64,000 nt of DNA from the NCBI GenBank assembly GCA_020849475.1, contig JADLGE010000048.1, forward strand, positions 1 to 64,000. The letters are read 5' to 3'. The stretch comes from Gammaproteobacteria bacterium (GTDB taxonomy: Bacteria > Pseudomonadota > Gammaproteobacteria > Ga0077536). Of this stretch, positions 6,973-33,412 are shown piece by piece; position 1 is the first letter of the stretch; every line of letters begins with the position of its first letter. The notes beneath the pieces are model-generated. The model saw only the letters and a program-made list of their open reading frames with translations. It did not search any database and was not told the origin of the DNA. The translations under genes and the position numbers were made by a program.

Positions 6973-7466
6973 TTCAGCCCGTCCAGAATTTCGTCGACAC
7001 GGTCGATGGTGAGATTTTCGTGGTAGACGTGATTGACCTGCATCATCGGCGCGCCACAGCAGGCCGCGAGGCATTCTTCTTCGCGCTTCAGGAAGATGCG
7101 GCCGTCGGGTGTCGACTCGCCGATGCGAATGCCGAGTTTGTTCTCGACATGGGTCACGATGTCTTCACTGCCGCGCAGCATGCACGACACGTTGGTGCAG
7201 ATGGCGACGCAATTGCGGCCGCAGGGCGAGGTCTCGTACATCGAGTAGAAGCTCGCCACCTCGTACACCGCGATACGCGGCAGTTCGAGGTAATCGGCGA
7301 CGGCGTCCATGAGTTCGGTGGTCAGGAAGCCCTGGTTCTCGTGCTGCACTTCAGCCAACGCGGCGAGCAGCGCGGACTGCTTGCGATCGGGCGGATACTT
7401 GGCGACCCACGCGTCGATCACCTCGCGCGCGTGGTGGGATAGCAGCTGGTCGTGTGACTCACTCAT
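6969..7466 (-). CDS. nuoE: NADH-quinone oxidoreductase subunit E (2Fe-2S)
   Basis: Subunit E carries the 2Fe-2S cluster N1a beside the FMN site of NuoF. The protein has 165 residues with a thioredoxin-like fold expected. The four cluster cysteines are present as C90 and C95 (CTNVSC) and C132 and C136 (CLAACCGAP). It starts with ATG 9 nt after the nuoD stop and shares 4 nt with nuoF. Confidence 0.97.
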
Positions 7467-7475
7467 GGCGCGGAC

Positions 7476-8729
7476 CTAGCGGTCGATTTCTCCAAACACG
7501 ATGTCCATGGTGCCGATCACGGCCACCACGTCGGCCAGCATGTGGCCTTTGACCAATTCATTCATGGCCGCCAGATGGGCGAAGCCCGAGGCGCGCGCCT
7601 TCAAGCGATAAGGTTTGTTGGCGCCATCGGACACCAGGTAAATACCGAACTCACCCTTGGGATGCTCGACCGCCGAATAGACTTCGCCGGCCGGCACGCA
7701 ATAGCCCTCGGTAAAGAGCTTGAAGTGGTGAATCAAAGACTCCATGTCGCCCTTCATGCTCGCGCGGTCGGGCGGCGTGAGCTTGTGATCATCGACGATC
7801 ACCGGGCCGGGATTGGCGCGCAACCATTTCACGCACTGCTTCATGATGCGCGCCGACTGGCGCATTTCTTCGACGCGCACGAGATAGCGGTCGTAGCAGT
7901 CACCGTTGACGCCGACCGGAATGTCGAAATCGAGGTCGGCATAGACTTCGTAGGGCTGCTTCTTGCGCAGATCCCATGCCAGGCCCGAGCCGCGCAGCAT
8001 CGGTCCGGTGAAGCCGAGTTCCAGCGCGCGTTCGATGGTGACGATGCCGATGTCGACGGTGCGCTGCTTCCAGATGCGGTTGTCGGTCAGGAGCGTCTCG
8101 TATTCGTCGACGCAGGCCGGAAAGCGATCACAGAAATCATCGATGAAATCGAGCATCGAACCGCGGCGATTGGCGTTCAGATGTTCGAGATCCTTGGCAT
8201 TGCGCCATTTCGAAGCCTGGTAGAGCGGCATCGAATCCGGCAGGTCGCGATACACGCCGCCCGGCCGGTAGTAGGTCGCATGCATGCGCGTGCCGGACAC
8301 CGCCTCGTAGCAGTCCATGAGATCTTCGCGCTCGCGGAAGCAGTACAGGAACATGGTCATGGCGCCGATGTCGAGGCCATGGGCGCCGAGCCACATGAGG
8401 TGGTTCAGGATGCGCGTGATCTCGTCGAACATCACGCGGATGTACTGCGCGCGTATCGGCACTTCGATGCCGCACAGTTTCTCGATCGCCATCACGTAAG
8501 CGTGCTCGTTGCACATCATCGAGACGTAATCGAGCCGGTCCATGTAACCGATGCTCTGATTGAACGGCTTGTTCTCGGCCAGCTTCTCGGTGCCACGATG
8601 CAGCAGACCGATATGCGGGTCGGCGCGTTCGATGACTTCGCCGTCCATCTCCAGCACCAGGCGCAGCACGCCGTGCGCGGCCGGATGCTGCGGGCCGAAG
8701 TTCAGCGTCAGATTACGAATCTCAGGCAT
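7476..8729 (-). CDS. nuoD: NADH-quinone oxidoreductase subunit D
   Basis: Subunit D (49-kDa homologue) forms the quinone-binding pocket together with NuoB. It has 417 residues. The N-terminus [22 protein letters not shown] contains the conserved histidines near the quinone headgroup, and the C-terminus DIVFGEIDR is the family hallmark. It is a separate protein here and not fused to NuoC as in enterobacteria. Its ATG overlaps the nuoC stop by 8 nt. Confidence 0.97.
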
Positions 8730-31289: not shown

Positions 31290-31450
31290 GTCATCCACTC
31301 CTGCTCACGATTGTCTGTCGCATCGCGACCCTGCGCGATTGTAGCCAAAGCAGGCGCCACCAGGCACGGCGCAAAATCCGCGTCGCGGGCGTGGAATCAG
31401 CGCCCGCGCGAGCCTCTATACTAGGCCGAAGGCAACAGCCAGGAGTGAAC

Positions 31451-32803
31451 ATGGCGTCTTACGATTACGATCTCTTCATCATCGGTGGCGGCTCGGGCGG
31501 CGTGCGCGCGGGCCGCATGTCAGCCAGTTTCGGTGCGCGTGTGGCGATGGCTGAAGAACGCTATATGGGTGGCACCTGCGTCAACGTCGGCTGCGTGCCG
31601 AAAAAATTATTCGCCTACGCCGCGCATGTGCATGAAGAAGTGCACGATGCCGCCGGCTTCGGCTGGAAGATAGCCGACGGCAGTTTTGACTGGCCGACCC
31701 TGGTCGCCAACAAGAACAAGGAGATCGAGCGCCTGAACGGCATCTATCAACGCCTGATGGACAACGCCGGCGTGACGGTGTTGCACGAACGCGCCGTCAT
31801 CAAGGACGCCCACACCGTGACGGTCGGCGGGCGTGATATCAGCGCCGAGCGCATCCTGGTGGCGACCGGCGGCTGGCCTTTCGTGCCGGACTTTCCCGGC
31901 AGCGAACTCGCCATCAATTCCAACGACGCGTTCTTCCTCGAGCGCCTGCCGAAGCGCGCGGTGGTGGTCGGCGGCGGCTACATCGCGGTTGAATTCGCGG
32001 GCATCTTCAACGGTCTCGGCTGCGACACCACGCAACTCTATCGCGGGCCCTTGTTCCTGCGCGGCTTCGATGACGATGCACGGGTATTTCTTGCCGACGA
32101 AATGAAGAAGAAAGGTGTGAAGCTGTGCTTCGACACCGACGTCACGCGCATCACCCGCGAAGCCGACGGTCTGCGCCTGGCGCTCAACGACGGCAGCACC
32201 CTCGATTGCGATCTCGTGATGTACGCAACCGGGCGTAAACCCAACAGCGCCAATCTCGGCCTCGAAGCCTGTGGTGTAGCGCTCGATGCCAACGGCGCGG
32301 TCAAGGTCAACGGCAACTACCAGACCAGCGTGCCTTCGATTTACGCCATCGGTGATGTTACCGACCGCATCAACCTGACGCCCGTCGCGCTGGCCGAAGG
32401 TATGGCACTGGCCTGGCATCTGTATCGCGACCGCGAGCGCCCTGTCGATTACGAATTTGTACCGAGCGCGGTGTTCAGTCATCCGAACCTCGCCACCGTC
32501 GGCTACACCGAGGCACAGGCGCGCGAAAAGTTCGGCGCAGTGACGATATTCAAATCGACGTTCACGCCGCTCAAGCACACGCTGTCAGGCTCCAAGGAAA
32601 AGACCTTGATGAAACTGGTGGTCGATAGCGCCAGCGATCGCGTGGTCGGCGCCCACATGATCGGTCCCGACGCGGGTGAATCCATCCAAGGACTGGCCGT
32701 TGCCATCAAGGCCGGCGCCACCAAGGCAATGTTCGACCGCACCATCGGCATCCATCCGACCTCGGCCGAGGAATGGGTGACGATGCGCGAACCGGTGGCC
32801 TGA
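31451..32803 (+). CDS. gor: Glutathione-disulfide reductase
   Basis: Gor reduces oxidised glutathione with NADPH in the cytoplasm. The 450-residue flavoprotein has an FAD-binding [16 protein letters not shown], the redox-active disulfide [13 protein letters not shown], a second dinucleotide fold [14 protein letters not shown], and the C-terminal dimer-interface motif [14 protein letters not shown] with the catalytic histidine. AGGAG precedes the ATG. A peroxiredoxin gene with an in-frame TGA starts 69 bp downstream on the same strand. Confidence 0.95.
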
Positions 32804-32872: not shown

Positions 32873-33412
32873 ATGGGCATGATGAAACTACGCGCGCTGG
32901 CAGCCTTGCTGCTGGGCGCGATGACGGGTCTGGCAGGCGCGTCGGCACAGGCCGCCGAGCTTGCCGTCGGTGACGTCGCACCTGACTTCACCCTCGCCGG
33001 CTCTGACGGCAGACAGCATCACCTCGCCGACTACCGCGGCACCGCCGTGGTGCTGGCGTGGTTCCCTAAAGCCTTCACCGGCGGCTGAACCGCGCAGTGC
33101 AAATCACTCCGTGAGAGTGGTGCATTGCTGAAGAGCTTCAAGGTCGCCTATTTCATGGCGAGCACCGATGACGTCGCGACCAACACCAAATTCGCGGCCG
33201 AGACCGGCGCGGATTTCCCGATACTCGCCGACCCGGACAAGAAAGTCGCCGGCGACTACGGTGTGCTGGGCATGATGGGCTTCGCGTCGCGCTGGACGTT
33301 CTATATCGACAAGGACGGCAAGATTGCCTACATCGACAAAGACGTGAGCGTGGTGAAAGCCGGCGCCGACACCGCGGCGCGCCTCACGGCTCTCGGCGTG
33401 GAAAAACGCTGA
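32873..33412 (+). CDS. Exported selenocysteine peroxiredoxin (TGA 33086-33088 read as Sec72)
   Basis: Seen: an ATG with AGGAG nine bases upstream opens a frame with a signal peptide (LLLGAMTGLAGASAQA), VAPDFTLAGSDG and VLAWFPKAFTGG. It meets TGA at 33086, then continues in the same frame as TAQCKSLRESG through a full peroxiredoxin C-terminal half (FPILADPDKKVAGDYGVLG, TFYIDKDGKIAYID) to a stop at 33412. The TGA replaces the peroxidatic cysteine expected after AFTGG. A SECIS-like hairpin follows at 33095-33127. Known: Sec-containing peroxiredoxins exist in bacteria. Inferred: a 179-residue periplasmic selenoprotein reducing peroxides, with Cys76 as possible resolving residue. The alternative is a nonsense-mutated pseudogene or base error. 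Confidence 0.78.
33095..33127 (+). promoter_or_regulatory. Candidate bacterial SECIS element in the peroxiredoxin mRNA
   Basis: Beginning six nt after the TGA, CAGTGCA (33095-33101) pairs with TGCATTG (33121-33127) with one G-U. After an AA bulge, TCACTC (33104-33109) pairs with GAGTGG (33115-33120), including one U-G. The apical loop CGTGA (33110-33114) has G in second position. The loop starts 21 nt after the TGA. This fits the described bacterial SECIS geometry (loop 16-37 nt from UGA, a G among the first two loop bases). Confidence 0.65.

Follow-up and report, generated by a model that had tools for sequence, protein, structure and literature searches.

Selenocysteine-containing peroxiredoxins (Sec-Prx) are an established family that is common in marine metagenomes, as described in PMC1088965, PMC2398784 and PMC13188914. 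A Sec-Prx was isolated in 2001 (cited in PMC13188914), and by 2005-2008 such proteins had proved plentiful in ocean metagenomes. In the Sargasso Sea set, Sec-Prx was reported to rank second in abundance among known selenoprotein families, with 43 genes, a TxxU motif and assignment to COG1225 (PMC1088965), and the GOS data were reported to contain 253 members (PMC2398784). PrxU of Eubacterium acidaminophilum (NF040737) is likewise a bacterial Sec-dependent peroxiredoxin. In PrxQ enzymes, a single helix carries both the peroxidatic residue and the resolving Cys. AhpE is a one-Cys enzyme that uses Cys and has neither a second residue at +4 nor a signal peptide.

Here we analyzed a 64,000-nucleotide stretch of DNA (the window; positions 1 to 64,000 of contig JADLGE010000048.1, assembly GCA_020849475.1) from a gammaproteobacterium of the lineage Ga0077536. 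The explanation that best fits the whole of the evidence, and in which we place very high confidence, is that a gene in this window codes for an exported Sec thiol peroxidase in which Sec72 would be inserted by means of SelB and a SECIS element.

A peroxiredoxin frame with one internal TGA

The gene (positions 32873 to 33412, plus strand) is predicted to encode an exported selenoprotein peroxiredoxin of the AhpC-TSA type, PrxQ/AhpE-like, of 179 residues including Sec72. Its frame runs from an ATG at 32873, preceded by a ribosome site (AGGAG) about 9 nt upstream, to a TGA at 33410-33412. As a reading made from the sequence alone had stated, these 179 codons contain exactly one internal stop, the TGA at 33086-33088 (codon 72). 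Standard gene callers would split the gene into a 71-codon fragment and a second piece of about 95 codons further downstream. The glutathione-disulfide reductase gene gor (31445 to 32803, plus strand), which that reading had also placed next to the peroxiredoxin, lies 69 bp upstream and was identified by profile matches to NF004776 and TIGR01424, both above cut-off. A MATE transporter gene follows downstream on the opposite strand.

Residues 32 to 154 of the readthrough product matched PF00578 (AhpC-TSA) with an E value of 4.6e-30 and a score of 104.6 bits against a gathering score of 26, and the match spans the TGA. The surrounding sequence is PKAFTGG-U72-TAQC76-KSLRESG. P65, T69, U72 and R140 were invariant in 36 aligned sequences, so that both the PxxxTxx(C/U) motif and the active-site Arg are present. 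The match and the motif together bear out the earlier placement of the TGA at the active-site cysteine. Cys76 (33098 to 33100, plus strand), at U+4, was kept by every aligned homologue of the subfamily and, on the basis of the alignment and the predicted structure, is a candidate for the resolving residue, sharing a helix with Sec72. An AlphaFold2 model (mean pLDDT of 90) has a peroxiredoxin fold with Sec72 and Cys76 inside a helix spanning residues 70 to 81, and its top structural matches in the PDB were Sulfolobus Bcp1 and mycobacterial AhpE. The gene product scored below the cut-offs of three NCBIfam models: PrxU (NF040737; 40.9 bits, cut-off 270), Prx-SUH (NF045827; 28.5, cut-off 298) and the PrxQ/BCP equivalog (NF006960; 83.4 bits, cut-off 140).

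The second conserved redox residue four positions from Sec72 would also suit a selenoprotein that is a thiol:disulfide oxidoreductase or another redox enzyme and not a peroxidase, with U-x3-C serving as a dithiol-type site. The protein belongs to the broad Trx superfamily, and related Prx-like selenoproteins with a UxxC motif are known (PMC1088965). However, the UxxC motif of the Prx-like thiol:disulfide oxidoreductases is absent from this protein, which has U-x3-C. Further, the peroxiredoxin signature PxxxTxxU is complete, Arg140 is invariant and the nearest structures, Bcp1 and AhpE, are peroxidases. Together, these features make a function other than peroxidase unlikely.

The TGA is conserved among homologues

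The predicted Sec codon at the peroxidatic position of PxxxTxxU (33086 to 33088, plus strand) falls in an alignment column that is invariant (U/C72). Among 36 genomes sampled from the same family, a close homologue is present in 20 (the source genome among them), in every case with a single TGA at the same codon. Relatives that are 54 to 89% identical retained the TGA at codon 72 although the flanking DNA had diverged, in agreement with the earlier argument that its placement is not random. The wider sample comprised the nearest 80 loci in other species genomes, from Acidobacteriota, Planctomycetota, Verrucomicrobiota, Myxococcota and other Gammaproteobacteria (taxa as given in the record titles, not all of them reliable); the majority had TGA and the remainder TGC or TGT. 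Across all aligned loci, some of them duplicates, the codon 72 column contained 83 TGA and 27 TGC/TGT codons and no other codon. The distinct homologues across phyla (n = 87) comprised 69 with TGA and 18 with TGC/TGT. The alignment that the sequence-only reading had proposed thus returned TGA or Cys codons and nothing else. Within the wider class, the closest homologue with Cys belongs to a genome (G057) without selA.

Six relatives (G007:C31, G008:C155, G014:C23, G015:C108, G020:C29 and G021:C60) encode a second, distant peroxiredoxin (31 to 38% identity) with one in-frame TGA, which is probably another Sec-Prx subfamily. Two public MAG records titled Klebsiella pneumoniae, CAMCBY010000003.1 (L051) and CAMATU010000207.1 (L053), are probably mislabelled, since their genes are closest to those of this gammaproteobacterial family, to which Klebsiella is unrelated.

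The source genome encodes the Sec insertion machinery

The source genome is a 5.4-Mb draft of 137 contigs that is 96% complete. On contig C26, selA, selB, the tRNA-Sec gene and selD lie within about 8 kb in one direction. SelA (596 bits), SelB (431 bits) and SelD (424 bits) each scored above cut-off, and the tRNA-Sec, with anticodon TCA, scored 65 bits (cut-off 47) and was also found by ARAGORN. The Sec insertion genes for which a search had been advised are therefore present in one locus of the same genome. At this locus (L131, approximately 7100-8560), a serine-hydrolase-like gene lies between selB and the tRNA-Sec gene, and an MsrA/MsrB-like fusion lies between the tRNA-Sec gene and selD.

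When the genomes of 46 loci from the wider homologue sample were included, a selA match was present in 42 of the 47 TGA-form genomes and in 10 of the 18 Cys-form genomes (Fisher p = 0.005, an optimistic value because members of one clade do not count as independent observations). No selA match was obtained in five MAGs carrying the TGA form; two of these are only 62% and 87% complete, and the five negatives may reflect incomplete assemblies.

Elsewhere in the source genome, a SelW/T/H-like gene on the minus strand (G000:C2:7475-7663; L136) carries a CxxU motif whose U is an in-frame TGA (MKFEIEFCVQ-U-NYLP) and is a second predicted selenoprotein. The sole intact formate dehydrogenase alpha gene is free of internal stop codons. 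The start of an FdhA-type molybdopterin oxidoreductase gene (G000:C90:39580-39840; end of L135) is cut by the contig end, so the genome may still encode a Sec formate dehydrogenase.

At the sequence level, an open frame interrupted by a single UGA would look no different if that codon were decoded without Sec, either by general reassignment or by low-level near-cognate readthrough (for example, as Trp). Both the peroxiredoxin gene and gor terminate in TGA, which indicates that UGA is a normal stop here, and general reassignment was rejected on this ground. The aligned residue is always Cys where it is not TGA, the Sec machinery is in the genome, and an enzyme with Trp as its peroxidatic residue would presumably be inactive. 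Decoding without Sec is thus highly improbable.

A conserved hairpin follows the TGA

A predicted apical SECIS stem-loop (33104 to 33120, plus strand) consists of a 6-bp stem, UCACUC/GAGUGG, and a CGUGA loop with GU at loop positions 2 and 3; the loop starts 21 nt after the UGA codon. With its lower stem, which belongs to this species and is missing from some relatives, the full predicted hairpin extends approximately from 33094 to 33128 (plus strand), with a fold energy of -18.3 kcal/mol. The hairpin agrees with the four constraints of the published bSECIS model (PMC13188914).

The six hairpin pairs form in 94 to 100% of the 69 distinct TGA sequences, whereas pairs 21-31 and 23-29 form in merely 28% and 22% of the 18 Cys sequences. 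Pair 20-32 is G-C in some sequences and A-U in others, a compensatory change. At pair 21-31, sequences coding for Leu and Ser have C-G and those coding for Phe and Asn have U-A, so that the two residues shift jointly and the RNA pair is kept; most Cys homologues have Leu and Asn together, and the pair is lost. The Arg codon in the loop is CGU in 58 of 70 cases, compared with 16 of 122 Arg codons in the other stretches sampled from these genes. CGC, the top Arg codon in those stretches (47/122), does not occur in the loop (0/70). This covariation and loop codon choice are the strongest evidence for selection on the RNA element itself.

Fold energy was less informative. In stability, the hairpin of this gene exceeds about 98% of its synonymous recodings, and dinucleotide shuffles of 63 nt, a weak test, gave a z of -1.4. 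Mean recoding z values were -1.1 for all TGA sequences and -0.6 for Cys sequences, and fold energy alone therefore fails to separate the two groups; they are separated by pair conservation and loop codon choice. One Cys homologue from Verrucomicrobiales (L078, 3001-3510) has kept both a SECIS-like stem and a CGUGA loop and may have switched from Sec to Cys only recently.

A single base change from TGC/TGT, through a nonsense mutation or a miscalled base, would be enough to give an ordinary Cys peroxiredoxin this TGA, but such an origin is scarcely credible and was rejected because the same TGA is conserved in 69 distinct sequences from several phyla and independent assemblies, with downstream coding intact (as the earlier reading had seen, without decay), a covarying hairpin and sel genes present. 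The probable selenoprotein first proposed is now supported by the sel genes, by homologues that carry only TGA or Cys, and by the conserved covarying hairpin. With the outcomes of the machinery and homologue searches also in its favor, the TGA almost certainly specifies selenocysteine in the active site, as judged from comparative sequence data.

Predicted export and linkage to gor

The N-terminal segment MGMMKLRALAALLLGAMTGLAGASAQAA (32873 to 32956, plus strand) is signal-peptide-like by hydropathy and reading. A hydrophobic N terminus followed by small residues precedes the peroxiredoxin domain in nearly every homologue, and export thus looks like a family trait. Four homologues (L028, L104, L110 and L128) have a lipobox-like Cys at the N terminus, which suggests that some family members are lipoproteins.

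In 14 of the 20 family genomes, gor adjoins the Sec-Prx gene on the same strand; it was not found at the loci from other phyla. Gor has no visible signal peptide, which leaves no obvious route by which it could pass electrons directly to an exported peroxiredoxin. The linkage might speculatively reflect glutathione as reductant or merely shared regulation under oxidative stress. A literature search, incomplete in its coverage, found no exported, gor-linked Sec-Prx.

Discussion

The anatomy and conservation of the locus suggest a pathway in which SelB with Sec-tRNA-Sec would bind the hairpin just past the UGA and place selenocysteine at residue 72. The signal peptide would direct the protein to the periplasm or envelope. 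There, Sec72 at the start of helix alpha-2 would reduce H2O2 or an organic peroxide and become a selenenic acid, which Cys76, one helical turn away, would probably resolve as a selenenyl-sulfide. A small thiol or thioredoxin-like partner could then reduce the selenenyl-sulfide, the candidates being glutathione and a periplasmic thioredoxin-like protein.

The family is a natural experiment, with the same protein in Sec or Cys form and with or without a SECIS, that bears on the benefit of Sec to an exported peroxidase. It also lets one measure how far an RNA element within a coding region limits protein evolution.

Like the described Sec-Prx (TxxU) family, this protein combines PF00578, Sec at the peroxidatic position of PxxxTxxU, a bacterial SECIS and Cys homologues (PMC1088965, PMC2398784, PMC13188914), and the COG1225 assignment of the Sargasso Sea Sec-Prx (PMC1088965) agrees with the Bcp/PrxQ-type best matches found here. 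It differs in its signal-peptide-like N terminus and the invariant Cys at U+4; no such subfamily appears in the available portions of PMC1088965, PMC2398784 and PMC13188914. PrxU belongs to a different peroxiredoxin subfamily, given the score far below its cut-off (40.9 versus 270 bits), and comes from a strict anaerobe. The best NCBIfam and PDB matches were to the PrxQ/BCP thiol peroxidases (NF006960; Bcp1, 3drn), from which the protein differs in scoring below cut-off, in having its second Cys at +4 and not +5, in its predicted export and in Sec. AhpE of Mycobacterium tuberculosis (1xvw, 4x1u) shares the fold and the FTG-x-C context, with 34% identity in the structural match. Since the PrxU and Prx-SUH models miss this protein, the exported U-x3-C group may merit a model of its own.

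There is about an even chance that the group is a distinct, unnamed subfamily of exported U-x3-C Sec-Prx that spans several phyla, is operon-like with gor in one gammaproteobacterial family and has a SECIS that dictates paired residues (Leu-Ser or Phe-Asn), a constraint from which Cys homologues are mostly free. The sequence-only reading had expected a notable case. Sec-Prx has long been established and is common in marine metagenomes, and the gene is a convincing but ordinary member of the known bacterial Sec-peroxiredoxins; what is modestly new is the signal-peptide-bearing U-x3-C subfamily, its linkage to gor in 14 of the 20 family genomes and a SECIS that constrains protein sequence.
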